Virus record (IMG/VR): IMGVR_UViG_3300046459_000436
Coordinates: 1 to 64,000 of that record
DNA length: 64,000 bases
Source: a virus
Reading direction: 5' to 3' (one strand)
Positions within the stretch are counted from its first letter, which is position 1; each line of letters starts with the position of its first letter. A program made the translations under genes and the position numbers. Under the pieces are notes generated by a model. It did not search any database. It worked only from the letters and a program-made list of their open reading frames with translations, and had not been told where the DNA came from. Shown here piece after piece: positions 14,319 to 62,744 of this stretch.

Positions 14319-14446
14319 GGTGTTGCCTTCCGGCAGTGGTGGGTATGACGAAGCCCCGCGCACGGGGTGTGGGCGGGGCGGCGTGACCATCTCTGCCGAG
14401 CGGCACCAGCGATGGGCTGGCGGTCAGGGTGAAGCGGGGTTGCGCG

Positions 14447-16054
14447 TCAGGCGCGGGCGCCGAGGATGGCGTTCACGGTCGCCGGGGAGACGTGCTGCCG
14501 GAACTCCTCGTCGGTGTACTCGTGGAGCGGCTTGGCGGGCCAGCCCTCCGGGAGGCCCCCGCCGGTGACGGGCGCGGTGTGCTCGGTGACCGGGGTGACG
14601 AGACCCTTGCGGGTCGGGCCGCCGGTGGCCTCGACGTGCTCCTGCACAGCCTTCGGCAGGGCGCCGGCGATACCTTCGGCGACGAGGCGCGCGATGCGCT
14701 GCTCGTCGGTCTCGGCGACCTCTGCGTTGGCCGGGGCCGCAGCCTCGACGACGGTCTCAGTCGGCGCGGACTCCACGGGCGCGACGGGCGCCGGAGTCAT
14801 TGCCGTGACGAAGCCCGCGAGGGCATCGCTCAGCTTGTCGATCTTCGCGCCGAGGGCGTGGATGCCGTCGGCGCTACCCGGGGTCTCGGCCGCCGGGGTG
14901 GGGGTGGACTCCGCCATGGCGGGCTCCTTCTCCTGGGTGGGGGTTTCGGCGGCCGGTGTCTCCGGTGCCGGGGTCTGCGGGAGGGCGTCTGCGGGGGCGG
15001 TCTCACCCATGTCGTCGTCGGCATCCTCGGCCGGGGCGCCGGCGAGGTCGATGTCGGCGTCCATGTCCGGGTCGATCGCGACCAGCGCGGTGCAGGCGCC
15101 TGCCATCGCGGCGCGGCCGACCGCGTCAAGGTCGTGCGGGTCGAGGAGCCGCGACGACACGGTGATGGTCGTCGGCCCGTTGGTGAGGCTCAGGTACACG
15201 TCGGCCCGGTCCGGGGCCATGTCCCAGCACTCAGCGAGAGCCTCGGTGACCGGAGCGGCCGGGTCTACCAGCCAGCCCTCCTCCGTGCGCGCCACGCCGT
15301 GGCCCCTGAGGGCCTTCGCCGCCCGGTCCTTGACGCGCTTGAGCTGCGCGGCCGTGTACTGCCGAGCGGTCGTCGACTCGCACAGGGCGAGCCAGGACGC
15401 CTTCGCCTGCGTGCGGGTGCCGACCGGCAGGCGAGGCTCGCCCAAGTACCCAAGGTCGGCATACGGGCCCGTTTCGGCGGCGGCGGTCTCGGTGATGGTC
15501 ACGGTCGCCTCCGGGGCGGACTCGGTAATCGGCACCCGGGCGGTGCCGTCGGATTCGCGGGGTTCGGAGGCCACCGGATCGACACTGTCGATGACCGCAC
15601 CGGCCACGCCCGGCTTGCGCGTGTAGTCCAAACCGTCGAGTTCCACGTCGTCCCCGGCCTCAACGACCTGGCCGTCAGGCCCGTTTTCGCGCCGCACCTT
15701 GCCGAGCCAGGCACCGCGGATGCTGACGCCCTTCAAGGTCGGCTTCAGGCCGGGCGCCGAGGGGGCGGCCAGGTTGGCGATATTCCGGCCGTGGGTGGTG
15801 TCGTCGATGACGGCTTCGAAACGGGCGGCGCCGTCGGTCTCCTGCCAGATGCGGGTCAGTTGGCCAACGAGCTGTGTGGAGTCGTCGTCGGCCGCGTGGT
15901 GGGTGAGCATGGTGATCGGCATGTCGTCACTGCTGCCGATGCGAGCTTGGGCTCGCTCTACCATCCGGCCGATGGCTTCGCTGGTGTAGAGCCGGTTGTT
16001 CTTGCTGATGCCGGGCCGGATCGCGGTCCCGGTGACGGTGGCGATCGCGGCCAC
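14447..16054 (-). CDS. Prohead protease fused to scaffold domain
   Basis: A 535-residue protein directly before the capsid gene. The N-terminal 120 residues carry the herpes/T4-gp21-like protease pattern: NNRLY at 19-23, a His pair in MLTHH (52-53) and KGVSIRG with the likely nucleophile Ser111. The C-terminal half is acidic, Pro/Ala/Glu-rich and helical (EDADDDMGETAPADA; SADGIHALGAKIDKLSDAL), ending in EFRQHVSPATVNAILGARA, a probable capsid-binding tail. Protease-scaffold fusions shape the procapsid and then degrade themselves. The start is a GTG with GGAGG five bases upstream; the frame stays open far upstream but without this composition. Confidence 0.85.
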   Translation of the reverse strand: MAAIATVTGTAIRPGISKNNRLYTSEAIGRMVERAQARIGSSDDMPITMLTHHAADDDSTQLVGQLTRIWQETDGAARFEAVIDDTTHGRNIANLAAPSAPGLKPTLKGVSIRGAWLGKVRRENGPDGQVVEAGDDVELDGLDYTRKPGVAGAVIDSVDPVASEPRESDGTARVPITESAPEATVTITETAAAETGPYADLGYLGEPRLPVGTRTQAKASWLALCESTTARQYTAAQLKRVKDRAAKALRGHGVARTEEGWLVDPAAPVTEALAECWDMAPDRADVYLSLTNGPTTITVSSRLLDPHDLDAVGRAAMAGACTALVAIDPDMDADIDLAGAPAEDADDDMGETAPADALPQTPAPETPAAETPTQEKEPAMAESTPTPAAETPGSADGIHALGAKIDKLSDALAGFVTAMTPAPVAPVESAPTETVVEAAAPANAEVAETDEQRIARLVAEGIAGALPKAVQEHVEATGGPTRKGLVTPVTEHTAPVTGGGLPEGWPAKPLHEYTDEEFRQHVSPATVNAILGARA

Positions 16055-16501: not shown

Positions 16502-17494
16502 TCAGGTGAACCAGTTGGCGAAGTGAGCCAGCGAGACGTCAGCCGCAGGTACGCAGCGGCAAACGGGGTGGCTTGGCATTAGGGGGAAGTCGGTGATCGG
16601 CCACGGGCTGCCCGCCTCGTTGTCGATGCACGTAGGACAGACGCGGCCATCTCCCGCAGTGAGCCACGAGACGCTCTGCACGCCTTCGGATTGGTACAGC
16701 GACAGGGCGCCTTGGTCGGCGGCGGTGGTCATGGCCCAGTCGACAATGAACGCGACTGATTCCACGTCCGTGCCGGTGAGGACGTTCATCGCGTCCTCAA
16801 TCATCTGGTCGCGGCTGGCACCGTCCTCGGCCCCTTGCGCGAGTATCCGACCGAGGTCTGCCGCGGCCCGGTCGATAGTGCGGCCGAGCCAGCCGCCCGT
16901 GTCCGCCCAGATCTCGTCGAGGCGTTCCAGGGACTGGTAGGCGTCGCCGAAGGCGATGTTCCAGTCGAGGCCGATCCGGTTGGCGCGTTCGGCGGCGATG
17001 GCGACCGCGTTGACCATGCCCTCCGCCCGGCCGGCTGCGATGGCATTCCTCAGCGCGGTGCGCAGGGCATCCCATCCGGCGCCGGCTGCGTCGGCGATTG
17101 CGTGCAGCATGGCTTTGGCGGCTTCGAGTGCTTCAGTGCGGATGCTGGGCTTGCCGTGGTCGGCTTCGGTGAGTCCGGCCTGCTGCCGGAACCGGTCAAC
17201 CACGGCGGCGACCGCGTCCCGGCCGATGAGGTCGCGCCACGCATCGGCCACGAATGGTACGTGCTTGGCCTGCTGCTCCTCGCGGCGTTGGAACAGTAGC
17301 GCCCACATGCCTTCGAGCTTGCCGAGGTCGATGGTGACTTCGAGGATGCGCGGGTCGTCAGCGTGCTCGATGGCGAGCGCCACGGCTGCGGTGGAAGCGC
17401 GCCGCACGCGGTTCGTCATCGGCCCCCCGGAGACGGCCCAGCCTGCAGCGAACGCCTCGCGGGCGAAGCCCTCAATGGGGTGCGGCATGGGCAC
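16502..17494 (-). CDS. Mu gpF-like minor head protein
   Basis: A 330-residue helical protein with the C-terminal signature of Mu gpF / SPP1 gp7-type head morphogenesis proteins: DGRVCPTCIDNEAG followed by PLMPSHPVCRC, a Cys/His cluster near residues 290-320. These proteins join the procapsid with the portal and may enter the cell with the DNA. It stands two genes upstream of the protease in transcription order. The gap to the portal has been filled by the GIY-YIG/antitoxin insertion. Confidence 0.85.
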   Translation of the reverse strand: MPMPHPIEGFAREAFAAGWAVSGGPMTNRVRRASTAAVALAIEHADDPRILEVTIDLGKLEGMWALLFQRREEQQAKHVPFVADAWRDLIGRDAVAAVVDRFRQQAGLTEADHGKPSIRTEALEAAKAMLHAIADAAGAGWDALRTALRNAIAAGRAEGMVNAVAIAAERANRIGLDWNIAFGDAYQSLERLDEIWADTGGWLGRTIDRAAADLGRILAQGAEDGASRDQMIEDAMNVLTGTDVESVAFIVDWAMTTAADQGALSLYQSEGVQSVSWLTAGDGRVCPTCIDNEAGSPWPITDFPLMPSHPVCRCVPAADVSLAHFANWFT

Positions 17495-18652: not shown

Positions 18653-20201
18653 CGACACCTCCTGGCAGCGTGGCCAGCGCCTCCCGCAGCCGAGCCCTGT
18701 ACCGGGCATGCAGCGCCTCGACGGGCGGCTCCTTCTCCGGCTCAGCTGGCTCCTCGGATTGCCCTGGGGGCGCCTTGCCCGCGAACGCGGCGAGCTGGGG
18801 CGGCACGGGGGCGGGCTCGGGCTTCTCCACCGCGATCGGCTCGCCGTGCTCTGGCGCAGCTGGCTCCAGAGCGGTGCCGCGGAGTCTGTTGGCGATGAAC
18901 GCCTTGGATGCGGCATCCATGTCGGCCCACTTCACCAGGTTGGTGCGGTCGATCAGGACCGGCTGGTCGCCGCCGTCGACAGGGGGTTCGCCGATGTCGG
19001 CTCGGGCCCGGTTGAGGGTCCATTCACCGTTGCGGATCCGCATGTCACGGATGTCCTCAACGGTCTTGGAGTCACGCATGTCGACATCACGGAACTTGAG
19101 CTTCCAGCCTTCGACGCCGAAGCCGTTCTTCGCGAGGTGGAAGTTCAGGGCCTCCAGCACCAGTTCGGCCAACGGCTGGCATGTGTTGACCATGAACGTG
19201 CGGTCCTGCGCCTCGCCGGTGCCGCCGCCGAGGTTCCCGGACTCGATGATGCCGACCTTGGATGGCGGAACCCCGTAGGCGGCGATGATCTCGTCGCGCT
19301 TCTGGTTGAGGAACTGCAGGTAGTCCATGGTGCGGGACTGCGACAGTTCGTTGACGCCGGCGCCGCCCTTGGTGTTGATCGGGTTGCCGATGTTGCGCGG
19401 GCCGATGTTGCGCTGCTGGTACTGGGCGTTCCACCGGTTGATGTCCGACGGGGAGGCGCCCGCCGGGTGGTCCACATGGAGGACCGGGGGGCAGCCCTTC
19501 CGGAAGATCTCCTTCGAGGTTGCTGCCGAGAACAGCCAGGACACGATCGGCAGCATCGCCGCCTGCGTCGGGCTGACACCGAACACCCCGGACCGCGGCG
19601 AATCCAGCGAAATGTGGATGACGTCGCGCGGCTCGAACGTCGCCCGCTGGCCGAGTTCGGTGACCTGCACGTAGCTGGTGATCGTGCCATGTTCGTCGGC
19701 GATCGGCAGCATGCTCGGGCAGTCCAGCGAGTACAGGGCGACCGGCTGCTGGCCGAGCCAGACGACCTCGATGAACGCGTCACCGAACACGAGCAGGTCG
19801 GTGATGACGCCGCGGAGGATCTGCCGGACATTCTCCCGCGGGTTGCAGTAGGCCAGCATCCGCTCCAGCAGGAGCACCTGCTGTGGCTTGTCCGGCTGCT
19901 CCTCGTCGCCCTCACCGTTGTCGTTGTCCCAGTCGGTGACGAGGCCGCCCGCAGTGATGGTGCGCGCGATGGCGTTCACGGATGCCCACGACCAGGGACA
20001 GGCGAGGTACGCCTCGTAGAGCTGGTTCAGCATCGATCGGCGGTCGGACTGGGTGGCTGCGCCGATGCCCTGATTGGACTCGGTCAGGCCACCCGGGCTG
20101 ATGCCGTACTCGAAGCCCGAACGCTCCGGGAGCTTCGCCGGGGCCGTCTCCAGCACCTCGGTCTCCGACCGCAGACTGTTCCACCAGGTGCGCAGACTCA
20201 C
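18636..20201 (-). CDS. Portal protein
   Basis: A 521-residue portal subunit (dodecameric ring at the packaging vertex). Evidence: WASVNAIARTITAGG, ILRGVITDLLVFGDAFIEV, the stretch FEPRDVIHISLDSPRSGVFG, and QKRDEIIAAYGVPPSKVGI, which is the conserved portal core with the long tunnel-helix region. The C-terminal 100 residues are Pro/Glu-rich. It follows the terminase gene with a 4-base overlap, standard for head modules. Length is normal for the HK97/SPP1-like portal families. Confidence 0.95.
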   Translation of the reverse strand: MSLRTWWNSLRSETEVLETAPAKLPERSGFEYGISPGGLTESNQGIGAATQSDRRSMLNQLYEAYLACPWSWASVNAIARTITAGGLVTDWDNDNGEGDEEQPDKPQQVLLLERMLAYCNPRENVRQILRGVITDLLVFGDAFIEVVWLGQQPVALYSLDCPSMLPIADEHGTITSYVQVTELGQRATFEPRDVIHISLDSPRSGVFGVSPTQAAMLPIVSWLFSAATSKEIFRKGCPPVLHVDHPAGASPSDINRWNAQYQQRNIGPRNIGNPINTKGGAGVNELSQSRTMDYLQFLNQKRDEIIAAYGVPPSKVGIIESGNLGGGTGEAQDRTFMVNTCQPLAELVLEALNFHLAKNGFGVEGWKLKFRDVDMRDSKTVEDIRDMRIRNGEWTLNRARADIGEPPVDGGDQPVLIDRTNLVKWADMDAASKAFIANRLRGTALEPAAPEHGEPIAVEKPEPAPVPPQLAAFAGKAPPGQSEEPAEPEKEPPVEALHARYRARLREALATLPGGVDERAA

Positions 20202-21711
20202 GGGACGTTCACCGTCCCCCCAGCGCGCGGCGCCTCATCGTCATCGAACCACCAGGCGTCGTCGCTCGGCGCAGACTCGGACGGGCGCACGGCCATCGTC
20301 GGCCCGAGCGGCTTCAGAACCTCCGTGGTGGCGACCGGGGCTGCGTCGTCGAGGATGACGAACTCTGGGCCGGAGCCAAGGTTGGACAGGAGGTACCTGA
20401 CCGCGTCGGCCAAGTGGTCATCTGCGGTGGTGTCGGCGTCTTCCGGGTCACCCTTGGTGGCGTGCGGCAGATCCGACAGTTCCCGGTAGAGATCGGGGCA
20501 CGTCGTGAAGATGTGCATTTTCGGGCAGGTGTCCCAGCCCTGCGCCCGGTGATGCGGGCAGGCCGGCGCCTCGGCAAGGTAGGAACGCACCCGCTGCCAG
20601 CCGATGACGCGGGAGCCCGCTCCCTTGCCGGCCTGGGCCAGGTGCACTCCGTTGTCGGCGTACACCGCGGCAATGGGCTTCGCATCGCCGCGGGTGGCCC
20701 ACATCGCGTCATCGGCGTACCGCACGGCGATGTGTTCGCCGTGCGCTTCGGCCGCGAGGATGCTCTGGGCCTGCTCCGCTTCGCCGACTCCGCGCCGGTA
20801 GATCTCGCGGTAGACCCAGACGCGACCGTCTTCGTCGACGGCAGCCCATAGGACTGCCCAGGGGGCTGCGAAGCCCCAGTCGATGCCGTTGTATCGCTTC
20901 CACGTCGCGGGCAGTGCGATCGGCTCGATGACGTGCCGGTCGCGCTTGAGTTGGAACATCTGGCCTTGGAACACGTCCCAGTCCCCGTCCAGGAATGCGG
21001 CCCGCAACTTTTCGGGCAGCGCCTTGAGGTCGGCGGCGTATTCAGGGTTGACGTGGGGGTTGTCGGACAGCTTCGACGGGATGAAGCGCACCGTGCGCCC
21101 GCGCTCATCGACGATGACCTTGCTGCCGTAGCCAGTGGGCTTGATGTAGCGGGTCTTCACCGCGCCGTGGCCCGGGCCGCCCGGGTTGGTGCCGGAGCGG
21201 ATGCCGAGAACGGGGATGTCGCGGCGTCCGGACCGCAGCCGGGATTCGAGGAAGCTGCACACGTCGGGTGGGGTGAGGGTCCGCTCGTCGAAGATAAGCA
21301 GCTGGTACTGGCCGCCCTGCCTGCGGGTGGCGTCCTGGACGGTCTCGGCGTACCGAAACATGATCAGGCTGCCGTTGGGGAACCGGAGCTCGTACTCGGT
21401 GCCGTTCCAGCGGGCCCCGAGGTCTTTGGCGAAGTTGAGGTTCACCAGTTCGGCGATCAGTGACTCTTTGAGTTCGCCGTAGGTGCGGCGGAAAGCCCCG
21501 ACGCGCAGCCCCGGGTAGCGGACGCATTCCCGGATGGCGTGCGCTGTCAGGGCCCGGCTTTTCCCCCGCCCGCAGCGCCGCCGAACAGGACGTCGAACTC
21601 TTCTGCACTGTGGAAGGTCAGCTGCTTCGGGGTGGGGGTGTAGCCGAGGGCGCCGAAGACGTCCTGTGGGGGTGCTTCCAGCATCTGGGCGGCGAGGATG
21701 AGGGCGTCCAC
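20198..21711 (-). CDS. Terminase large subunit, interrupted by a -1 frame change in Walker A
   Basis: From the GTG at 21711 (GGAAGGGG upstream) the first 51 codons encode the expected N-terminus, ending FDVLFGGAAGGGK. That frame then stops at 21547-21549. The rest (SRALTAHAIRECVRY and on) lies in the -1 frame. The junction is GGGAAAA (21559-21565), a canonical slippery heptamer read G-GGA-AAA; slipping back one base restores GGAAGGGKS exactly, for 504 residues in all. Walker B is LLIFDE; nuclease motifs follow (NGIDWGF, VYADNG, DDHLADAVRY). Either a programmed shift or a one-base deletion in the A run (real or sequencing) explains it. A second GTG at 21718 opens the main frame but gives a non-homologous Arg-rich start. 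Confidence 0.85.
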
Positions 21712-21728
21712 GACTCACCCCTTCCTGA

Positions 21729-30156: not shown

Positions 30157-30558
30157 TCAGGCGGCGCGTCGGCCGCGCTTGGGCTGGGTGGAGTAGTCGT
30201 TGAGGTTGCCGCCGCGAATGTTGGGCCCGTCGTCCTCGTTGAGCCATTCGCGGTACTGGCTCAGGGTCATGAGGCCCTTGCAGGGGGCGGCGTTGCGGTT
30301 GTCGTAGACGGGGCCGGCGCACGCCCACAGGTCGGGGGCGCCTTCGGGCAGGCCGGTGAAGGTCGAGATCTTCGTGAAGACGTGCTCGTCGAGGTACTGC
30401 CGAGCGCCCGGCCCGTTGTCCGACTTGATCGTGTAGTAGGTCTTGCCGAGCACGACCTTCTTCGCGAAGCGCTTGGCTTCGTTGCTGGCGCCGGACTTGT
30501 GGATGGCGTCGGTGAGCTTGCAGTCGAGGTAGTTGGTGGCGCGGTACCAGGTGCCCAT
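30157..30558 (-). CDS. Hypothetical protein next to the transfer locus (133 aa)
   Basis: A 133-residue protein: MGTWYRATNYLDCKLTDAIH, KRFAKKVVLGKTYYTIKS, ARQYLDEHVFTKISTFTG and a basic end (QPKRGRRAA). ATG with AAAGGAG. It is the first gene beyond the iteron array at the 3' side of the TraB-like gene. Function unknown. Confidence 0.6.
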   Translation of the reverse strand: MGTWYRATNYLDCKLTDAIHKSGASNEAKRFAKKVVLGKTYYTIKSDNGPGARQYLDEHVFTKISTFTGLPEGAPDLWACAGPVYDNRNAAPCKGLMTLSQYREWLNEDDGPNIRGGNLNDYSTQPKRGRRAA

Positions 30559-30633: not shown

Positions 30634-30657
30634 GGTGGTTTGTGATGGTTTGTGGGG

Positions 30658-30823
30658 CGTACACCCCCCGTACAGTGACCGCTATATGCCGGTATGCGGG
30701 GCGTACAGTCGGGGCGGTCAGCCGTACAGGTGGACGGCTCCAGGTGGCCGGTGAGCGGGGGGTGTACGGGTCACATACCGGCATCTACCTGGGCAAACAG
30801 CCGCCCTGTACGGGGGGTGTACG
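30658..30823. repeat. Dyad-arranged CGTACA iteron array, clt or origin candidate
   Basis: A 17-bp sequence, TGTACGGGGGGTGTACG, at 30807-30823 has a perfect inverted copy at 30658-30674. Each copy holds two cores 11 bp apart. Inside lies a perfect 11-bp inverted pair, ATGCCGGTATG (30686-30696) and its complement (30774-30784). Single cores add to seven: CGTACA at 30658, 30669, 30702 and 30723 on the left, TGTACG at 30763, 30807 and 30818 on the right, all pointing to the centre near 30741. No gene is present. In Streptomyces plasmids the cis-acting transfer locus clt, with direct repeats bound by TraB, lies by traB; here the array is four bases past its stop. Confidence 0.75.
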
Positions 30824-30828
30824 GCCTA

Positions 30829-33057
30829 TCAGGCAGCCTCCGGGGAGGCGAACTGGTCCCGCTTGAAGCCCTTCAGGCGCTTCCCGGCACCGAAGGTCAC
30901 GATGTTCGTTGTTGTGATCCCATCCCGGCGCAGACGCTCCCGCAGAGCATCCACATCAACGCCCAGCTCCTCGGCCAGCAACTCAGCCGTCAGCCCCTGC
31001 GTCTCCGGAACCCCCAGCCGATCGAACACCGCCACCGCATCCCGGCGCATCTCCGCCGCACGCGCCACCGCCTCATCGACACGACTACGCGACGCCGCCT
31101 GACCCGTCAGCGTCCCGGCCTTCACCCGCAGGTCGTAGCCGCGCTCCACGATCTCCCGGAACTCCGGCAGCTCGATCACATCGGACTTCTGCGTGATGTG
31201 ACCCGACTCCGCACCCTGGTCCAAGACCACGACACCCTTGTGGTGCTCCAGCAGCTTGTGCGGCGCCGCGCCGGCCTGCACGGCGTCGTCGCCGAGAACC
31301 ATCCGCGCGGAGGCGTCGCCCTTGACCCGAAAGCAGGCGCGCTTCACGCACACCCCGCGCAGCTTGGTCGGGACGCTGTCGGAGTCGGGGCGCTGGGTGA
31401 TGAACACGCCCATGCCGCCGACGAACCGGGCCACGCGCACGTACCGGGCGAGGGTCTCGACCAGCACGTCCTTGCCGTTGCGGTGCTTCGCGCCCTTGCC
31501 GTCCTCGTCCTCCTCGACGACCTTGACGCGGGTGTTCGCGGCGGCGTCCAGGAGTTCCTGGAGCTCGTCGACGATGAGGAGGGTGAGCCTCTTGTCGGGC
31601 TGCCGGGCAAGCGCCGGGGTGAGCTTGCCTTCGGGGCACTGCTGGGGGTCGGTCTCGGACAGGCTCTCCAGCTGCTCGCCGAGGTTCTGCATGCTGCCGA
31701 TCAGGTCGTCCAGCACCTCGTGGACTTCGACGAGGGTGTCCGGCTTGGAGCCGGAAATGTAGGCGTGGGCGATCTTCTTGAGGGCTGCCCAGTCCGGCCC
31801 GGACTTGCCGGTGATGACGATGATCCGCACGTAGGGGTCGAGGGCAGCTGCAGCAGCGATCAGCCGTGCCAGGTACGACTTGCCGTAGTCCTGCAGTCCG
31901 CCGATCAGCAGCGACGACCACAGCAGGTGCAGTGCCTGCCGGTCATGCCGGGCGTCCTGGCCGAGCGGTACGCCGTGCTGCCAGAAGTTCCACTCGGGGG
32001 CGTTGATCAGGGGGGACGGGGTCTTTCCGGCGCCGAACGGGTTGTCGGCGTCGGCGACCCAGATGGTGAATCGGCTCTCGTGCCCCTCGGCGCTGGTGTC
32101 CTTCTTCAGTTCGATGCGGGACGCCTTGACGCGCAGTGCGCCGGCGAGCGGTACGAGGCGGGCGATGGCCTGCTCTGCGGTGCGTCCGCCGGGCAGTTCG
32201 ATGGTGGCGGTCCAGCCGGGGCCGTCGGTGCGCAGGCCGAGGACGCTGGTCTCTTCGCGGTCGGCCTCCTCGATGATCTTCGCTTTGACGAGGGCGGTGA
32301 CCAGGTCGTTCGCACCCCGCACCTGCACGTCCTCGGACTTCGTGAGCACGACCGGACCCGCAGCACTCGCGGAGGCCGCGGCGGCGATGGTGGCGGGCGA
32401 CTCAGCGGCCAGCGTCACCGGAGACGACTCCTTGTCGTCGGCTTCGCGGTTCCGCCCCGCCCACCAGGCCGCACCGAACCCTCCGAGGAGGACGGCGAGG
32501 AGGCCGAGGATGGGGTGCTGCATCTTCCCCAGCAGCATCCAGCCGGCCACCACGCCCGCGGCGACCATGGCGCACCGACTGGCCTGCTGGGTGCGCTTGT
32601 GGCGCTTGATGTCCTTCTCGGTGACGTCGTCGTCGGCGTGCGGGAGGACGGGGCCGACGGTGACGCGCGTGGCGAACGCCTGGTTGAAGCGGTCCGCCTG
32701 CCCGGGGTGCCCCTGGTTGGCGGCGGTGGCGGCCTGCTTCTGCAGGTCCCGGACTTCGCTGTGGTGCTGGCGGATGGCCTTGCGGTTCTCGGCAGCCCGC
32801 TTGTGGATGACGTCCTTGGCGAGGTTCTCCTCGTCGACACCTTCAAGGAGCACCCAGGCGCGGCCCTGCTGGTAGAGGGTCTGGCAGCCGCGCTTGGTCT
32901 GCGCCCACACGGTCAGCTTGACGACCGGCGGCGGGGCATCGGCGGGCACCGGCTTGAGGAGTACGTGGGCGGGCGGGTTGGTGGGCATGGGCGGGACGTG
33001 ATTCTGGACCGGGATCTGGGGGCCCGCCGTCTCGGGCGGGGTGGCGTGCGTGGTCAT
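30829..33057 (-). CDS. traB-like: TraB-like FtsK/SpoIIIE conjugative DNA translocase
   Basis: A 742-residue membrane ATPase. Residues 1-160 are cytoplasmic and charged, two membrane segments lie at about 163-200, and an FtsK/SpoIIIE motor follows. Walker A is GLQDYGKS (387-394), Walker B LTLLIVDE (491-498), and the FtsK-type VFITQRPDSDSVP is at 551-563. The C-terminal 60 residues (LTAELLAEELGVDVDALRERL) form a winged-helix gamma-like domain for DNA recognition. Streptomyces TraB moves double-stranded DNA between mycelia as a hexamer. Length, order (Spd-like genes before it, iterons after it) and the wHTH support transfer rather than chromosome segregation. ATG start; the open frame upstream is not conserved-looking. 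Confidence 0.88.
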   Translation of the reverse strand: MTTHATPPETAGPQIPVQNHVPPMPTNPPAHVLLKPVPADAPPPVVKLTVWAQTKRGCQTLYQQGRAWVLLEGVDEENLAKDVIHKRAAENRKAIRQHHSEVRDLQKQAATAANQGHPGQADRFNQAFATRVTVGPVLPHADDDVTEKDIKRHKRTQQASRCAMVAAGVVAGWMLLGKMQHPILGLLAVLLGGFGAAWWAGRNREADDKESSPVTLAAESPATIAAAASASAAGPVVLTKSEDVQVRGANDLVTALVKAKIIEEADREETSVLGLRTDGPGWTATIELPGGRTAEQAIARLVPLAGALRVKASRIELKKDTSAEGHESRFTIWVADADNPFGAGKTPSPLINAPEWNFWQHGVPLGQDARHDRQALHLLWSSLLIGGLQDYGKSYLARLIAAAAALDPYVRIIVITGKSGPDWAALKKIAHAYISGSKPDTLVEVHEVLDDLIGSMQNLGEQLESLSETDPQQCPEGKLTPALARQPDKRLTLLIVDELQELLDAAANTRVKVVEEDEDGKGAKHRNGKDVLVETLARYVRVARFVGGMGVFITQRPDSDSVPTKLRGVCVKRACFRVKGDASARMVLGDDAVQAGAAPHKLLEHHKGVVVLDQGAESGHITQKSDVIELPEFREIVERGYDLRVKAGTLTGQAASRSRVDEAVARAAEMRRDAVAVFDRLGVPETQGLTAELLAEELGVDVDALRERLRRDGITTTNIVTFGAGKRLKGFKRDQFASPEAA

Positions 33058-33640: not shown

Positions 33641-35062
33641 TCAGTTCTGGTCGGTGTTTGAGGTGTTCTCGGTGGCGAGCCGACGACGTACATCGACGGC
33701 CTGCGCGCGCTTTGCGATGGGGTGGAACGGGGCGCTGTCGCCGCGTGTCCGGCGGGGCGGAATCGGCTTCGGTCGGGGACTGGTTCGGGGCTTCGCGGGA
33801 GAGGGGGATAGATGGGAGCTACGCTGCGCGTTCGTGACCTTGCTGGGTGTGTTCCCGGGGGCTTCTGAGAGGGCCGCTGCGACGCGTCGTGCGGCGACGT
33901 TGCGGGTGCGGATGACGTCGACGCTGTCGCCCGGGTCGGTGCCCTCGATGTCTCTGTAGGCGCGGATCCAAACGGCTTCGGTCACGGTCGTCTCGCCGAG
34001 CGCGGCAGCCAGCTTCAGTGCGTGCTCCCACACCTCCTGGAACTCCTTAGCGCGGTCAGTGGCGAGCTTGTTCGCGGCTTCCTCGGCAGCCTTGAGATCC
34101 GCCGCCTTCGCGTCGTCGGCAGCCTTCTTCTCTGCGGCCTTCCCGGCCGCCGCGCGGGCCTCGGCCTTCTCCTTCGCCTTGCGCTCCCGACGGGTGAGCG
34201 CGCCGTCACGCTTACGGATCCGGCCGTGCTCGTGGAGATCCCAGACGCCCGGGCCGGCGACGGACGCGAACGCGGTACCGATGGCGGTCGCCGGGTCGAA
34301 GGCGTTCAGGCCGTGCCACAGGTTGACCCCGGCGGCGATGAACGCCAGCAGCCACGCGATGAGCCGGTAGTGCCAGTGCGGACGGTGCCCGGCGACCGCG
34401 GCGGCAGCACCCTTGAGGACGACCGCCGCACCACCTTCGAGCATGAGCGGGGCGATCACGAGCCACGGGGCGACGGGGGTCCAGAACGCGGCGATCTGCA
34501 CAGGCAGGGCGACGACGGCGCACACGATGTAGAAGCCGAGGGCGTACCGGCGCCACCGGGCGTCGGCGACGGCGATCTCCTTCGCCGCCTTGTCGGCGGC
34601 TTCCTGCTGAATCCGCTGCTCCTCAGCGGCGGACTGCGCTTCGTCGTCGGCCTCCTTGCGGGAGGCGGCGGCCTGCCGGTCGATCTCCTCCTGCTCGGCC
34701 TGGAGTTCGGCGAGCTTCCGGGCGTGCGCGGCCTGCTTCTCCTCCATGGCCATGCGGTTGCGCTCGTTGGCGAGCCGCAGACGCTCCGCCTCAGCCTCGG
34801 CCTTGGCGCGGATCGCGTCGGCCTCGGCGAGGGCCTTCACGCGGGCGGCCTCGACGGCGGCGGCGGTCTGGGCCCGGATCGCCTCGGCCTCAGCCTCGGC
34901 GCGCGGGTCGACGATGGGGACGGGAGTGGCGGCAGGCTCAAGCTCGGGGGCGGTCTGCTCGTCCTGGATGACGCCGTTGATGATCGGGAACGACTGCCAG
35001 CCCTCATACACGGGCACGGCAAGCCGCTTGGTGCCGTTCACCTGGGCCGGGTTGGCGCTCAC
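33641..35062 (-). CDS. DUF2637-type plasmid spread protein (SpdB-like)
   Basis: A 473-residue protein. Residues 55-165 are a long Ala/Glu/Arg coiled coil (AEADAIRAKAEAEAERLRLA). About four membrane helices follow between 173 and 275 (YALGFYIVCAVVALPVQIAA; LVIAPLMLEGGAAVVLKG; LIAWLLAFIAAGVNLWHG), the DUF2637 pattern. The C-terminus is a second charged coiled coil and a basic tail. DUF2637 proteins are hallmarks of Streptomyces plasmids and integrative conjugative elements, where they interact with TraB in intramycelial spreading. GTG start after AAGGAGA. Confidence 0.8.
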   Translation of the reverse strand: MSANPAQVNGTKRLAVPVYEGWQSFPIINGVIQDEQTAPELEPAATPVPIVDPRAEAEAEAIRAQTAAAVEAARVKALAEADAIRAKAEAEAERLRLANERNRMAMEEKQAAHARKLAELQAEQEEIDRQAAASRKEADDEAQSAAEEQRIQQEAADKAAKEIAVADARWRRYALGFYIVCAVVALPVQIAAFWTPVAPWLVIAPLMLEGGAAVVLKGAAAAVAGHRPHWHYRLIAWLLAFIAAGVNLWHGLNAFDPATAIGTAFASVAGPGVWDLHEHGRIRKRDGALTRRERKAKEKAEARAAAGKAAEKKAADDAKAADLKAAEEAANKLATDRAKEFQEVWEHALKLAAALGETTVTEAVWIRAYRDIEGTDPGDSVDVIRTRNVAARRVAAALSEAPGNTPSKVTNAQRSSHLSPSPAKPRTSPRPKPIPPRRTRGDSAPFHPIAKRAQAVDVRRRLATENTSNTDQN

Positions 35063-35097
35063 GGGAGATCTCCTTGTCTGGTCGGGCGGTTCGGGGT

Positions 35098-35373
35098 TCA
35101 GGCGGTCGCGGTCTTGGACTGGCGCTGCTGCACCACGTACTGGCGGCCCAGCAGGGCGACCGTCAGCAGGGCCTTCGGGTTGAAGCGGGCGATGACCACG
35201 ATCAGCAGCGCGGGTACCGTGATCCACGGCTGGTGGAGCATCCACACGGGCACGGCCAGCAGGGACGGCGCGGATCCGAGGACGGCGACCAGCAGCACCC
35301 ACAGGGCGACGGTCGACGCGCTGAGCCTGCGCGGCGGCGGGGTGGGGGCGGTCGGGGCGGCTGGAGTAGACAC
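35098..35373 (-). CDS. Small two-helix membrane protein of the transfer module
   Basis: A 91-residue protein with a Pro-rich start and two membrane helices (ASTVALWVLLVAVLGSAPSL; MLHQPWITVPALLIVVIA), ending basic (GRQYVVQQRQSKTATA). GTG after GGAAGGA. It resembles small Spd proteins by size and position before the DUF2637 gene. Confidence 0.65.
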   Translation of the reverse strand: MSTPAAPTAPTPPPRRLSASTVALWVLLVAVLGSAPSLLAVPVWMLHQPWITVPALLIVVIARFNPKALLTVALLGRQYVVQQRQSKTATA

Positions 35374-35451
35374 GGGGGTTCCTTCCGGTGGTCGGGTCGG
35401 GGTTACTGCGGTCGGATCTCCTGGCGGCCCGTGCGGGACGGGCATCCAGGG

Positions 35452-35817
35452 CTACCGGCCGGCAGGGACGGTCAGGCCAAGGAGGTGGTACGGGAACGGG
35501 TCGGATTCGGTCCGGGCGCTGGCCCACTTGATCCAGTACCAGTGGAACGGGAACGACTCGACGCCCATCTCCATGAGGGCGATCGCCCGGTGGTGCCCGT
35601 CGCCGACGTACACATCGAAGTACCGGTCGTCGACGCCCAGCAGGATCGGCACCTGAAGCCCGCGCACCGCGATCGACGCCTTCAGCTCATCGACCTTCAC
35701 GCGGTCCTTCCCGGGCCGGCCGAACTGGCGTCGGGCGTGATCCCACTTCCGGAACTCCGTCGGGTGGATCTGCTGGTCGTTGAGGAACGCGGTGGGCATC
35801 TGGCCGAAGTACTTCAT
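35452..35817 (-). CDS. ParB-like N-terminal domain protein
   Basis: A 121-residue protein with the ParB/sulfiredoxin-like box: VDELKASIAVRGLQVPILLG and FDVYVGDGHHRAIALMEMG (the GxxRR-like motif as GDGHHR). In stand-alone form this domain can bind DNA, hydrolyse CTP or act as nuclease. No HTH follows, so it is not a standard partition ParB. It lies in the transfer module; a role in DNA processing is possible. ATG start. Confidence 0.7.
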   Translation of the reverse strand: MKYFGQMPTAFLNDQQIHPTEFRKWDHARRQFGRPGKDRVKVDELKASIAVRGLQVPILLGVDDRYFDVYVGDGHHRAIALMEMGVESFPFHWYWIKWASARTESDPFPYHLLGLTVPAGR

Positions 35818-36455: not shown

Positions 36456-36704
36456 TCACTCACCCCCGCCCACGAGAGCGGCGGCGGCGGTGGGCAGGTC
36501 CCGGTTGGCGGCGCTCAGGAATGCGAGCGTCATGGCCGGTGTCAGCCGGTACGTGGTCTGCCAGAACGCGCCACGCTCGTCCCGGCTCGTCAGGGTGAGC
36601 AGGCCGCCACCATCGGGGGTCTCCTCGACCTTGAACATCGTCAGGTCGTCGATCAGCGGGGCCGGGGCCGCGGCAGTGGTGGGCTGGATCGCGTACACCG
36701 TCAC
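36456..36704 (-). CDS. Small protein (82 aa)
   Basis: An 82-residue protein: APLIDDLTMFKVEETPDGGG, LTLTSRDERGAFWQTTYRLT, then AMTLAFLSAANRDL. The GTG chosen forms a GTGA overlap with the previous stop; two other GTGs lie within four codons. Function unknown. Confidence 0.5.
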   Translation of the reverse strand: MTVYAIQPTTAAAPAPLIDDLTMFKVEETPDGGGLLTLTSRDERGAFWQTTYRLTPAMTLAFLSAANRDLPTAAAALVGGGE

Positions 36705-36796
36705 CACCCCCGCACGGCGGCGGCCAGTCGACGCAGCGCCCTGGCGAACGCGAACCTCGGCGGCAGGTCCGGGATGATCGGGGGGAGGCCGCTCAT
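36701..36796 (-). CDS. 31-residue microprotein
   Basis: A 31-codon frame from an ATG that overlaps the previous TGA (ATGA): SGLPPIIPDLPPRFAFARAL and then RRLAAAVRGW. Pro-rich start and amphipathic basic end. It ends in a GTGA overlap with the next gene. Real expression is inferred from this overlap chain. Confidence 0.45.
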   Translation of the reverse strand: MSGLPPIIPDLPPRFAFARALRRLAAAVRGW

Positions 36797-37005
36797 CGCG
36801 CACCCGCCTCGGTCTCGGCGAGCCGGTCCGCAGACTCCCGGAGCCTGGCCGCCCGCTCAAGCAGCACGAGCAGCTGCTCCCGAAGCGCAGGCCGCTCGCC
36901 AGCCGGAACCGTGAAGTAGTTCAGCCCGTTCTGCAGCTTCCGGGCCTCGTCCTGGACGATGCGCAACTCGGCGTAGAGGTCACTCGATGTCAACTGCTCG
37001 CTCAT
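36793..37005 (-). CDS. Helical small protein (70 aa)
   Basis: A 70-residue coiled-coil-like protein: SSDLYAELRIVQDEARKLQN, then ALREQLLVLLERAARLRESA. ATG with GGTGTCC upstream, ATGA overlaps at both ends. Function unknown. Confidence 0.5.
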   Translation of the reverse strand: MSEQLTSSDLYAELRIVQDEARKLQNGLNYFTVPAGERPALREQLLVLLERAARLRESADRLAETEAGAR

Positions 37006-37196
37006 CGGACACCCCCGGGCTGCTCGCCGTGCTTGGCGGCGTTCCCCGACGCGTCCTGGTAGGCGGCCTGGTAGTGGCCGACGCTCCCGGCCGACGGGTG
37101 ACCCGGCGTGGCCTGGATCTCCACGATCCGCGCGGCCAGACCGTTGGCACGGCTCTGCTCCTCGGCGGCGAAGGCCGGAGACGGAAGGTGGCTCAC
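37002..37196 (-). CDS. Small protein (64 aa)
   Basis: A 64-residue protein: AFAAEEQSRANGLAARIVEI, then HYQAAYQDASGNAAKHGEQ. The GTG overlaps the stop of the gene before it by four bases. Function unknown. Confidence 0.5.
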   Translation of the reverse strand: MSHLPSPAFAAEEQSRANGLAARIVEIQATPGHPSAGSVGHYQAAYQDASGNAAKHGEQPGGVR

Positions 37197-37414
37197 AGGT
37201 CCTCACCACCGGCGGCGAGCTCGTAGGCGACCTGCTCGGGGATCCGGGCAGCCCACGCGGAGTCCTGGAGGTCAAGCTCCTGGTACGCGGCCTCGATCTG
37301 CTCGGCCGGCGACAGGGTGGCGCCCGGGGCGCGCTTCGGCAGGCGGACGTGCGAGGCGGCGGCGTGCGCGGCGGCATCGGCCTGAGACATCGGGGCGGCG
37401 TAGGCGGTGGTCAC
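37193..37414 (-). CDS. Small protein (73 aa)
   Basis: A 73-residue protein: MSQADAAAHAAASHVRLPKR, then LSPAEQIEAAYQELDLQDS and IPEQVAYELAAGG. I chose the GTG forming a GTGA overlap with the previous stop rather than one three codons upstream. Function unknown. Confidence 0.5.
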   Translation of the reverse strand: MTTAYAAPMSQADAAAHAAASHVRLPKRAPGATLSPAEQIEAAYQELDLQDSAWAARIPEQVAYELAAGGEDL

Positions 37415-37533
37415 TGCGACCACCGGTCCGTCGCGACGAGAAGCCGCTGGAGCGCCGCGAGACCCGAGGCGGAAAGGCCCGAGGCGACGACGATGGGGGA
37501 CGGTACGGGGGCGGTGCGGGGGGTCGTGCTCAT
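37411..37533 (-). CDS. 40-residue microprotein
   Basis: A 40-codon frame from an ATG overlapping the end of the HTH gene: STTPRTAPVPSPIVVASGLS, then SGLAALQRLLVATDRW. First link of the overlapping chain after the HTH gene. Function unknown. Confidence 0.45.
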   Translation of the reverse strand: MSTTPRTAPVPSPIVVASGLSASGLAALQRLLVATDRWSQ

Positions 37534-37736
37534 GACGCGAGCTCCTCGGGGGTCGGGTCGACGCCCGTCAGGGCGGCTTCGGGGACACGGATCGCTCCGC
37601 CGCCGCGCTGGGCGGGGGCGCCTACGGCCTGCGGCTTTCCGTACCGGATCGCCTCTAGGCGACCCTCCTGGATCCACCGGTAGACGGTGGCGGGGTGCAC
37701 GTTGAGGCGCTTGGCGACCTCCTTTACGCGCAGCAT
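37530..37736 (-). CDS. BldC/excisionase-type helix-turn-helix protein
   Basis: A 68-residue DNA-binding protein: MLRVKEVAKRLNVHPATVYRW, then IQEGRLEAIRYGKPQ, the MerR-like/excisionase HTH and wing. I chose the ATG five bases after GGAG rather than an upstream GTG. It is the first gene of the minus-strand transfer transcript and sits opposite the GntR pair. It may activate transfer genes. Confidence 0.75.
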   Translation of the reverse strand: MLRVKEVAKRLNVHPATVYRWIQEGRLEAIRYGKPQAVGAPAQRGGGAIRVPEAALTGVDPTPEELAS

Positions 37737-37770
37737 GCGGGCTCCAATCGTTGGTTTCGCAACTGCCGCA

Positions 37771-37800
37771 ACCATAACTGTTTAATCGGAGATGTAGCAA
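37771..37800 (-). promoter_or_regulatory. Probable promoter of the transfer operon
   Basis: On the minus strand TTGCTA, 18 bases, TATGGT (TANNNT). The region it shares with the divergent regulator genes contains a direct repeat, CGCAAC at 37758-37763 and 37767-37772, just after the -10 box, a possible operator. The GntR pair is the likely repressor, as KorSA is in pSAM2. Confidence 0.5.
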
Positions 37801-37902
37801 GCTTCTGAGTCCATGAATGTCCGCCTCAGAGTCGCTGCGCGTAATCATCAAGGGCTTAAGGTTGAGGTCAGCGCCGCAACGACCTTCGAGAGGGGCCCGC
37901 CA

Positions 37903-38430
37903 GTGACTGCGAAGTGGACCAGTACGTCTACGCCATACCTGCTACCACGCAGGCCCGGACAGGTAGACGCCTGGACGCAGGAGGCCGGAGCGCGCGGGGG
38001 TCAGCGCCTCATCGAGGTGGCCATCAAGGTGCCGCCGGCCGAGGTTGCGGAATCCCTCGGTCTCGCCGTTGGAGAGAGTGCGGTAGCGCGTCGGCGGGTG
38101 ATGACCCTCGACGGGCAGCCCGTTGAACTCACCGACTCGTACTACCCGCAGAGCGTTGCGGTGGGGACGCAACTCGCTGAGCACGCCAAGATCCGGGGTG
38201 GCGCTCCAACACTCCTCCGCAGCCTCGGCTACGAGGTGCACCGAGTAGCCGAAGAGGTAGAGGCGCGGGCGACAACGCCTGACGAGGCCGAAGCTCTCGG
38301 CCTTGAACCGGGAACTCCCGTACTCACGCTGCTGCGAGTGACCTACTCCTGCAGTGAACAACCCATCGAGGCATCACTGATGGTCATGAAGGGCCCTCAC
38401 CGCCTCCGGTACGAAATGGAGATCGGCTGA
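37903..38430 (+). CDS. UTRA-domain protein lacking the GntR DNA-binding domain
   Basis: A 175-residue protein aligned by eye with the C-terminal two-thirds of the GntR protein that follows: VPPAEVAESLGLAVGESAVA, VELTDSYYPQSVAVGTQLAE, IRGGAPTLLRSLGYE, EQPIEASLMVM. The winged-helix start is absent; residues 1-55 are unrelated. UTRA domains bind small effectors and dimerise. It ends one base before the next GTG, so the two are co-translated and may form mixed dimers. Start GTG with GAGAGGGG upstream; an ATG at 37813 is possible. Confidence 0.75.
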   Translation: MTAKWTSTSTPYLLPRRPGQVDAWTQEAGARGGQRLIEVAIKVPPAEVAESLGLAVGESAVARRRVMTLDGQPVELTDSYYPQSVAVGTQLAEHAKIRGGAPTLLRSLGYEVHRVAEEVEARATTPDEAEALGLEPGTPVLTLLRVTYSCSEQPIEASLMVMKGPHRLRYEMEIG

Positions 38431-38431
38431 C

Positions 38432-39193
38432 GTGGTCAAGCACAAGGACAAGCGCGCCGTGGCTGAGCGCATCGCCGCGAACATCAGATTCCTGATCATG
38501 TCCGGCGAGTGGGAGCCCGGAAAGAAGCTCCCGACCAACAGCGAACTCATGGCGGACTACGGCACATCCAACGTCACCGTGCAGCGCGCCCTCGGAATCC
38601 TCAAGGACGAACTCCTCCTCGAAGGCCGGGCAGGCAGCGGCGTCTACGTCCGCGCGCGGGCACCTCAGACCATCATCCCAGCGTCCTACATGGCACCCTC
38701 GGACCCCGGACATCCATACCGGTGGGTCACCGAAGCCAGCAACCGCGACCAGCACGGAAGTAACAGGATCCTCCAGGTCGCCGAGGTCGAACCGCCCAAG
38801 CGCGTCGCAAAGATCCTGGGCCTGGAGCCCGGCGACACGGCGGTTCTCCGGACGCGGGTCGGCCTCCTGGACGACGAGCCGGCGGAGATGACGTACTCGT
38901 ACTACCCGGCCAACCTTGCGCGGGGTACGCGCCTCGCTGACCGTCGGAAGATCCCTGGCGGATCGCCGACGCTGCTCGCAGAGATGGGCTACCCGCCCCG
39001 CGAGCAGGAGGACGAGGTGGCCGCCCGGATGGCGACGACCGAGGAGTACGAGCTGCTGGAGATCCCCGGCGATACGCCAGTGATCGAGGTCTTCCGGGTG
39101 GTCTACAGCGACGGCCGGCGCCCGATCGAGGTGACCGTGATGGTGAAGCCCGGCCACCTGTACAAGATGGGCTATCACCTGCCGGTTTCCTGA
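38432..39193 (+). CDS. GntR/UTRA (HutC-type) transcriptional regulator, KorSA-like
   Basis: A 253-residue regulator. The winged helix is at 1-75 (VAERIAANIRFLIMSGEWEP; SELMADYGTSNVTVQRAL; EGRAGSGVYVR) and the UTRA effector domain at 110-253 (EPAEMTYSYYPANLARGTRL). KorSA of pSAM2 and similar GntR regulators repress transfer and replication genes of Streptomyces elements. Adjacent to a divergent transfer operon it is the obvious candidate for that role. GTG start one base after the UTRA-only gene. Confidence 0.88.
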   Translation: MVKHKDKRAVAERIAANIRFLIMSGEWEPGKKLPTNSELMADYGTSNVTVQRALGILKDELLLEGRAGSGVYVRARAPQTIIPASYMAPSDPGHPYRWVTEASNRDQHGSNRILQVAEVEPPKRVAKILGLEPGDTAVLRTRVGLLDDEPAEMTYSYYPANLARGTRLADRRKIPGGSPTLLAEMGYPPREQEDEVAARMATTEEYELLEIPGDTPVIEVFRVVYSDGRRPIEVTVMVKPGHLYKMGYHLPVS

Positions 39194-39206
39194 CTCGGCA
39201 AGCCTC

Positions 39207-39232
39207 AGCCCCCGTCCGATGCGGCGGGGGCT
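39207..39232 (+). terminator. Terminator after the GntR gene
   Basis: AGCCCCCG pairs with CGGGGGCT around a 10-base loop, 13 bases past the GntR stop. Confidence 0.7.
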
Positions 39233-39255
39233 CTGTGATGCATGGATGCGAAAGC

Positions 39256-39284
39256 TTGATACAAAAGCGAATACGCCCTACTGT
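39256..39284 (+). promoter_or_regulatory. Strong consensus-like promoter
   Basis: TTGATA, 17 bases, TACTGT: the best sigma-70-type promoter seen in the window. It reads into a leader of about 120 bases before the next start codon. It probably drives the two small genes that follow in the lysogen. Confidence 0.65.
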
Positions 39285-39319
39285 CGTTCCCGTGAAGGTG
39301 GCGCACGCCACAACACAAA

Positions 39320-39345
39320 GGCCGGACGGTTGCCACCGTCCGGCC
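39320..39345 (+). promoter_or_regulatory. Leader hairpin, possible attenuator
   Basis: GGCCGGACGG and CCGTCCGGCC pair perfectly around TTGCCA, about 30 bases after the predicted transcription start. No T run follows. It may terminate early, stabilise the mRNA, or bind a regulator. Confidence 0.5.
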
Positions 39346-39413
39346 TGGGATCAAAGCGGGGTGCAACCCGCCGATCAGCTGAGGCCCCATCCGCCTGGAA
39401 GGAACTCTCGCCT

Positions 39414-39746
39414 GTGAGCGTACAACAGAGCACATCCGTTCGACCCATCGAGACCCCTGAGGCATCCGTCACGCCGCCCGCCCTCACCCTGCTGGCGAAG
39501 CTGTGGCAGTCGACGCCGCTCCCCCTGCTCCTGGAGGCCGCGAACGCCCGCGTCCTCGACTCGGAAGAGATCGACGACGAATGGTTCATGGGCGCTGCGG
39601 TACAGCGCAAGGACGGCCGAATGTTCTTCGTGATGCCGCCCAACCGACCCGAGGTAGAGCGCGACACGATCGTTCGGGACCTGATGGCGCGGATGCTCCG
39701 CGTGCCACTGCCCGGGATGACACCCACCGGACGAGTAGCCGCATGA
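39414..39746 (+). CDS. Hypothetical protein (110 aa)
   Basis: A 110-residue protein: LTLLAKLWQSTPLPLLLEAA, DSEEIDDEWFMGAAVQRKDG, then FFVMPPNRPEVERDTIVRDL and MLRVPLPG. GTG start after GGAAGGA. It has a dedicated promoter and leader hairpin and is translationally coupled to the next gene. I do not recognise it; its promoter suggests expression in the lysogen. Confidence 0.65.
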   Translation: MSVQQSTSVRPIETPEASVTPPALTLLAKLWQSTPLPLLLEAANARVLDSEEIDDEWFMGAAVQRKDGRMFFVMPPNRPEVERDTIVRDLMARMLRVPLPGMTPTGRVAA

Positions 39747-42385: not shown

Positions 42386-42456
42386 TCGTAAGTAAATCGC
42401 GCACACTTTCGATTTGCTTACGATGCCGTCCCGGGTCTCCCTACTCACAGGTAGGG
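42386..42456. promoter_or_regulatory. Two inverted repeats upstream of the toxin-antitoxin genes
   Basis: TCGTAAGTAAATCG (42386-42399) and CGATTTGCTTACGA (42410-42423) are complementary at 13 of 14 positions. CCCTAC (42439-42444) and GTAGGG (42451-42456) form a second dyad. A TANNNT box, TAGTGT, follows at about 42461. These are likely operator sites for the antitoxin or its complex. The rest of the 260-base gap shows nothing else. Confidence 0.5.
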
Positions 42457-42566
42457 CCGTTAGTGTGGACTCGATTGGATGGTTCTCCGCACACCATGGG
42501 TCCGCCGAGTCGCATGTGGGGGCGACTCGACTACGGTGGAAGCGAGGAACGCAGAGGGGACCGATC

Positions 42567-43019
42567 ATGGCCAACGTCAACGACGTAGCCGCATACATTC
42601 TGGCCAAAGCCGCACCGATGACCGCCATGAAGCTGCAGAAGCTCTGCTACTTCGCCTACGGCTATCACCTGGCATGGGAAGACCGGCAGCTCTTCCCCGA
42701 ACGGTTCCAGGCCTGGGCGAACGGCCCCGTGTCCCCCACCCTGTACGACAGGCACCGCGGGCGGTTCCAGCTGAACCGCGGCGACATCGCCGGCGACCCG
42801 TCCGTACTGGACGAGGGCGAGTGCGAGACGGTCGACCTGGTCCTTGACGCGATGGGCGGCTTCTCCGCGCACGAGCTGTCGGGCATGACTCATCGGGCGG
42901 GCCCGTGGCTGGCCGCCCGCGAGAGGGCCGGTGCCGCCGATCTGGAGCGGTCCACCGAGGAACTCCGCGACGAGGACATAGAAGATTTCTTTGGGGCGCT
43001 GGCGGGCAGCGACGACTGA
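42567..43019 (+). CDS. Panacea (DUF4065/SocA-like) antitoxin
   Basis: A 150-residue protein with the Panacea domain pattern: VNDVAAYILAKAAPMTAMKL, LCYFAYGYHLAWEDRQLFPE, FQAWANGPVSPTLYDRHRG, then VLDAMGGFSAHELSGMTHR. This domain neutralises many unrelated toxins encoded next to it. The next gene overlaps its stop (TGATG), the usual bicistronic layout. ATG after AGAGGGG. Confidence 0.88.
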   Translation: MANVNDVAAYILAKAAPMTAMKLQKLCYFAYGYHLAWEDRQLFPERFQAWANGPVSPTLYDRHRGRFQLNRGDIAGDPSVLDEGECETVDLVLDAMGGFSAHELSGMTHRAGPWLAARERAGAADLERSTEELRDEDIEDFFGALAGSDD

Positions 43020-53869: not shown

Positions 53870-54159
53870 CGGTCGGGGTCCTTCCGGGCGAGGTGCTTGC
53901 GGGCCCGGTTGATCGCGGCCTGCTCGTAGACCTCGCCGGTCAGGTGGCGGTCGAACAGCGGGGCGTCGTTGGCCGGTTCGGGCGCGAGGATGCGGCCGGG
54001 GACGGCACCCCAGGAGCAGGTCCAGGTGTGGCGGCAGGCCGGGCAGCGGTAGCCGGCCACGATCCCGTCGGCGCCGTCGGCTATCGACGACTCGGGGATG
54101 ACGTCGTACTGGCCGCAGTTCTCGCAGGCGTCGGCGTACAGCGGGTTGAGGTCGGTCAC
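53866..54159 (-). CDS. Zinc-ribbon protein next to the helicase (97 aa)
   Basis: A 97-residue protein: ADACENCGQYDVIPESSIAD, then GYRCPACRHTWTCSW, a clear four-Cys zinc ribbon, and a helical basic end (EQAAINRARKHLARK). GTG overlapping the helicase TGA (GTGA). It may act with the helicase or primase; no catalytic motif is seen. Confidence 0.65.
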   Translation of the reverse strand: MTDLNPLYADACENCGQYDVIPESSIADGADGIVAGYRCPACRHTWTCSWGAVPGRILAPEPANDAPLFDRHLTGEVYEQAAINRARKHLARKDPDR

Positions 54160-61756: not shown

Positions 61757-61930
61757 TCAGAGGTGGTCGTCGATCACGTCGGCGGCGAACTCGATGGCGG
61801 GCGGTCCGACCCACACGACGAGGGCTCCGGCGATCCCTGCGACGGCCGTCCACAGTCCGCTGTGGCTGAGGCCCCAGGTGATCCCCGATGCGGCGGCGGC
61901 GAGCCCGAGACCGGCGAGGAAGCGGGTCAC
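61757..61930 (-). CDS. 57-residue membrane protein
   Basis: A 57-codon frame from GTG: FLAGLGLAAAASGITWGLSH, then LWTAVAGIAGALVVWVGPPA and an acidic end (FAADVIDDHL). Two membrane helices. Overlaps the previous TGA by four bases (GTGA). Function unknown. Confidence 0.5.
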   Translation of the reverse strand: MTRFLAGLGLAAAASGITWGLSHSGLWTAVAGIAGALVVWVGPPAIEFAADVIDDHL

Positions 61931-62673: not shown

Positions 62674-62744
62674 GGGGAACTCCTGTTTGATGTCAGTGGT
62701 GTCGCGCCCGGATTCCGCCCGGGCGCGGCGCTTCGGGTGGTGGG

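Follow-up and report, generated by a model that had tools for sequence, protein, structure and literature searches.

The analysed stretch of DNA (hereafter the window) comprises 64,000 nucleotides of a virus record of 80,673 bases, in which tape-measure, capsid, portal and terminase genes are present. The record also carries a DnaB-like helicase gene (54156-55568, minus strand), a tyrosine integrase gene located beyond the window (13546-14589 of locus L081, about 75545-76588 of the record), and a transfer region consisting of a GntR regulator, a large membrane-protein gene and a TraB-like motor. Therefore, the record is a temperate phage carrying a plasmid-type conjugation module. The element is a phage-plasmid of the Streptomyces type. 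The occurrence of an integrase and a conjugation module in one record makes an integrated as well as a plasmid state possible. No near relative was found when 24 kb were compared with phages and plasmids by megablast. Elsewhere in the window, a SocA/Panacea antitoxin-like protein (42414-43019) and a TerF-type von Willebrand domain protein (61927-62934) are encoded. The transfer region includes the following features:

38432-39193, plus strand: GntR-family regulator (GntR and UTRA domains), heading the transfer region
33641-35527, minus strand: gene for a large membrane protein, upstream of traB, where plasmids have DUF2637/SpdB2-type genes
30829-33057, minus strand: traB-like gene for an FtsK/SpoIIIE-type double-stranded DNA translocase, about 742 aa from an ATG start codon inferred by comparison; the open frame extends to 33693
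30829-31113, minus strand: C-terminal domain of TraB, a predicted winged helix-turn-helix and the proposed reader of the repeat cores
30925-30954, minus strand: third helix of the winged helix, DALRERLRRD, the expected recognition helix by analogy with helix alpha-3 of pSVH1 TraB (PMC3583192)

Pfam gave no confirmation of the DUF2637/SpdB2 family for the membrane-protein gene. A second regulator gene (37813-38430) adjoins the GntR gene, and only a UTRA domain, without a DNA-binding part, was detected in its product.

The TraB-like gene corresponds to PHROG 1358 (phrog_1358, FtsK/SpoIIIE-like). Its tblastn relatives are annotated as FtsK/SpoIIIE and lie on Streptomyces, Pseudonocardia and other plasmids. 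Among phages, tblastn with TraB returned no match. The structural model of the protein (pLDDT 88) matches the FtsK motor 6t8o in Foldseek (E 3e-16) as well as the conjugation coupling protein TcpA. Pfam gave no domain for TraB, either above the cut-offs or at a loose limit; the assignment rests on PHROGs, the tblastn matches and the fold. The last ~94 residues were modelled as a winged helix (pLDDT 87) with the order helix-strand-helix-helix-strand-strand. The closest structures to this domain are Rex-type winged helices, the best Z being a middling 7.7 over 71 residues; FtsK gamma-domain structures are absent among the listed matches.

Directly behind traB lies a repeat array built on the core CGTACA, with the following components:

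30655-30826, no strand: the repeat array as a whole, a dyad of seven converging CGTACA cores; proposed as the clt, where TraB would dock
30658-30674, plus strand: left 17-bp double-core arm, CGTACACCCCCCGTACA, holding the cores 30658 and 30669 at 11-bp spacing
30686-30696, plus strand: left member, ATGCCGGTATG, of an exact 11-bp inverted pair that is distinct from the cores
30702-30707, plus strand: single core
30723-30728, plus strand: single core
30763-30768, minus strand: single core
30775-30785, minus strand: right member, CATACCGGCAT, of the same 11-bp inverted pair, likewise distinct from the cores
30807-30823, minus strand: right 17-bp double-core arm, an exact inverted copy of CGTACACCCCCCGTACA, with cores at 30807 and 30818

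The seven cores fall within 166 bp and are strictly segregated by orientation, four on the plus strand followed by three on the minus strand, converging on a centre at ~30741. Inverted-repeat detection paired 30655-30675 with 30806-30826 at 95%, and inside these arms the 17-bp copies are exact. The layout given in the initial annotation, with its seven cores, 17-bp inverted copies, 11-bp core spacing, 11-bp inverted pair, segregated orientation and centre, was recovered in full. The array was also said to start at the end of the TraB-like gene, and indeed 5 bp separate the last core from the TraB stop codon (30829-30831).

In the window, CGTACA occurs 48 times against 13 expected, with the plus strand richer, and this excess across the record probably reflects the codon usage of its mostly minus-strand genes. 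Outside the array, no 200-bp stretch holds three or more cores. The background rate predicts 0.105 cores per 166 bp, giving a Poisson probability of seven or more of ~3e-11 before selection. In addition, when the 250 bp following traB were shuffled 3000 times with dinucleotides preserved, no shuffle reached seven copies of any 6-mer, and the dyad is strong in DNA folding (z = -5.8). According to a repeat scan of the whole record, the array ranks third, behind an array of palindromic repeats at 55.85 kb and a stretch at 48.25 kb inside a predicted gene.

The array is kept in two environmental relatives whose TraB proteins are 94-95% identical to that of the window. Through CGTACA to CGCACA changes, one core is lost in one relative (L005) and two in the other (L004), and the changes separating the window from these relatives are too few for cores and spacers to be compared. 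The retention speaks for the presence of the array, the distance being too small to show selection on the cores.

The published clt of pSVH1, with the TraB recognition sequence (TRS) GACCCGGA, served as a positive control. Its TRS array begins a few bp after the traB stop codon, with spacings of 11, 22, 32 and 21 bp and one inverted copy; hence the position proposed initially for the window array, where clt lies in pSVH1, agrees with that of the known site. The two loci share an array near the traB stop, core spacings of 11, 21, 22 and 32 bp, an inverted copy, an FtsK-like TraB with a C-terminal winged helix, and GntR and SpdB-type genes within the same region. However, the core is CGTACA in the window and GACCCGGA in pSVH1, so the array is not of the pSVH1-type TRS sequence class, as had been noted for the known TraB 8-mer. 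Moreover, the cores of the window array converge strictly as a dyad, four facing three, whereas pSVH1 has mainly direct repeats, and the array described here, unlike the pSVH1 clt, is carried by a phage genome.

The clt of pWTY27, at the 3' end of its tra gene, consists of TGACACC repeats plus inverted repeats, protected by TraA in footprints (PMC3583192). It resembles the window array in its position at the tra 3' end and in having direct and inverted repeats, but differs in the core and in taking in 16 bp of the tra gene. The clt of pJV1, needed for TraB-family transfer, contains nine CCGCACA[C/G][C/G] repeats plus inverted repeats (PMC3583192); multiple short repeats are thus shared with the window, and the core is different. 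The Streptomyces plasmid-phage pZL12, which needs a tra gene for its conjugation (cited in PMC3583192), is a further likeness, being itself a phage genome equipped with a tra gene. The tra gene of pIJ101 is immediately followed by a spread gene, with clt at another place (PMC3583192); therefore, adjacency to traB is not universal. For the archetypal integrated element pSAM2, no clt had been described as of 2022 (PMC9513070). The core CGTACA differs from the published clt cores in the openly accessible literature, and would thus represent a new core in a kind of site that is already known.

Similar arrays are common behind traB in actinobacteria. We analysed 75 loci in a traB set to which a genome scan had added 68, together with 150 control regions situated after other genes in the same loci. 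Within 250 bp downstream of the gene, 64% of the traB loci showed a significant repeat array (shuffles, p<0.05), versus 9-10% of the controls. About a third of the traB loci have no significant exact-repeat array in this simple test, the statistic of which misses degenerate arrays. Distant plasmid TraBs are followed by other cores, namely CCCGCTC (L006), CCTGACC (L007) and GACACC (L008 and L010). The last of these also follows traB in L032, L034, L036 and L037 and matches the pWTY27 repeat TGACACC, and CCGCACA, identical to the published pJV1 clt core, occurs after traB in L024 (seven copies) and L026 (three copies). Several of the array loci sit in long chromosomal contigs; therefore, such arrays are not confined to plasmids. 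In nine representative arrays, the same-strand core spacings have a period of 10.7 bp (R=0.78), and none of 2000 random sets was as periodic. This periodicity fits, as expected, sites lying on one face of the helix. A search of viral contigs with the pattern CCGTACANNNNCCGTACA gave at least 120 scattered matches and was uninformative.

No array lies right behind the TraB of a distant phage-plasmid (L082). In this Streptomyces plasmid, which has a terminase gene, GTAGTGCGGTACAGCGCAC(TAC) repeats occur at 16900-17130, distant from the TraB-like gene, and the GTAGTGCGGTACAGCGCAC repeats were set aside since no TraB gene is detectable directly before them. The Amycolatopsis phage-plasmid pAmyja1 (L113) shows a kilobase-long crowd of GTCCCCG/CGGGGAC at 37480-38470, downstream of a 737-aa gene lacking an assigned function, and it was set aside on the same ground.

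We then related the cores to the two parts of TraB by partial Mantel tests, taking the 48 loci in which a core occurs at least five times. With the motor controlled for, similarity between cores correlates with the C-terminal domain (r=0.29, p=0.001), versus no correlation with the motor when the C-terminal domain is controlled for (r=0.00, p=0.53). For 21 dereplicated loci, the corresponding values are 0.28 (p=0.0005) and 0.02 (p=0.39); such tests are not wholly independent when the sequences are related. As judged from these comparisons, core similarity tracks the TraB C-terminal domain and not the motor domain.

Sister phages provide a closer view. The contig G002 encodes a capsid protein 96% identical to that of the window and a TraB that was found by profile and is not alignable to the window TraB by BLASTP, and behind this TraB lies a ten-copy convergent array of CTGCTCG type. 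A further contig (G019), with an 87% identical capsid protein, has a CAGGGAGG array. The TraB of G002, re-fetched as L244, and its relatives fall into two clear groups. The initial annotation held that relatives with the same TraB C-terminus should have the same array. This was borne out, not only by the two close relatives of the window, but also by the sister phages: all five loci with C-terminal domains 77-100% identical have a CTGCTCG array, whereas the four whose motors belong to the same family (57-67%) and whose C-terminal domains are unrelated (17-18% identity) have other arrays (cores AGACGG and ACCCGGC). Between L244 and L245, L242 and L243, the DNA of the C-terminal domain and of the array is at about the shuffled baseline, beside a next gene that is 87-91% identical. 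This contrast indicates that domain and array were swapped together beside the conserved gene. In the Actinomadura group, where the array layout is similar, the wing NRRG (L064, L065 and L069) occurs with CGCTAG cores and the wing NLKG (L070, L078 and L045) with CTCTAG, making this wing difference a candidate residue-to-base contact.

The joint swap provides the strongest evidence that the array is a clt and not an operator or promoter where GntR or another regulator would bind to control the next gene (30157-30558, minus strand). An operator would agree with the end of the array 100 bp upstream of the start codon of that gene and with the inverted repeats, which are typical of such sites. It is nevertheless very unlikely, because the sister phages have unrelated arrays in front of nearly the same next gene, and because the L006 and L007 arrays are flanked by genes that converge on them, a setting in which a promoter would not be expected. 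In addition, no sigma-70-like promoter was found, although Streptomyces promoters are often missed. The GntR pair had been put forward as possible binders of the array, but this reading is not favoured, as the region of the GntR genes (36698-39418) contains no CGTACA. Lying 100 bp upstream of the next gene, the array may have a second role.

The locus was originally regarded as a clt or origin candidate. While the former gained support from the relatives, from pSVH1 and from the match to the C-terminus, a replication origin with iterons of the phage-plasmid is highly improbable. Helically phased repeats and a strong dyad would suit an origin, but the neighbours of the array are traB and a small gene of unassigned function, with no replication gene adjoining; GC skew keeps its sign at the array; and the core follows the TraB C-terminus. 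Besides, the replication loci of pSVH1 and pWTY27 are separate from clt (PMC3583192), and another array in the record, at 55.85 kb near the DnaB-like helicase gene, is made of palindromic repeats of 22-24 bp. This second array (55853-56021) consists of six imperfect palindromic repeats, GTCACAGGCTTTGCGCCTGTGAC, with start-to-start distances of 22 or 24 bp. It is located about 285 bp upstream of the helicase start, overlaps a predicted minus-strand ORF, and is a candidate for origin iterons or a repeat element.

It is equally hard to regard the array as a partition (centromere-like) site for a ParB-like protein. A small ParB-domain gene (35452-35817) is indeed located 4.6 kb from the array, but its 121-aa product matches the ParB N-terminal part only, with no DNA-binding domain found, while the identity of the core changes with the C-terminal domain of TraB and most of the arrays were found directly after traB. 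Finally, some phage DNA packaging (pac) sites contain repeats and the array sits in phage DNA, but a pac signal can be practically dismissed, given that the terminase gene (20198-21718) is 9 kb away and that both chromosomal contigs and conjugative plasmids of the ordinary kind show the same architecture after traB.

Taken together, the array is very probably the clt of a conjugative phage-plasmid, a reading drawn from sequence comparison. It lies beside the traB 3' end, consists of short repeats with inverted copies, and has next door an FtsK/SpoIIIE-type motor with a predicted winged-helix C-terminus, to which the repeat identity is matched by comparison. In the proposed mechanism, a TraB hexamer would dock at the array on the DNA to be moved, with the C-terminal winged helix, encoded right beside the array, reading CGTACA. 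Cores spaced at about one helical turn and multiples of it would put the sites on one DNA face and gather TraB subunits, and the membrane-bound ring would then pump unprocessed double-stranded DNA into the recipient. We infer TraB binding, ring loading and export, and the convergent layout would load motors from both sides.

Transfer specificity of TraB is known for few plasmids, and the array offers a testable candidate clt in a phage-plasmid. Looking for a phased repeat directly after traB is a simple way to find clt candidates. There is about an even chance that winged helix and array, as lock and key, make up an exchangeable cassette across actinobacterial plasmids, chromosomal elements and phage-plasmids, in which the variety of cores could yield a residue-to-base code for TraB and predict cross-mobilisation, and the convergent double-core dyad of the phage-plasmid may serve to load motors from both sides. 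The many pairs of array and domain make the recognition by TraB, and the question of which elements or chromosomes it moves, directly testable.
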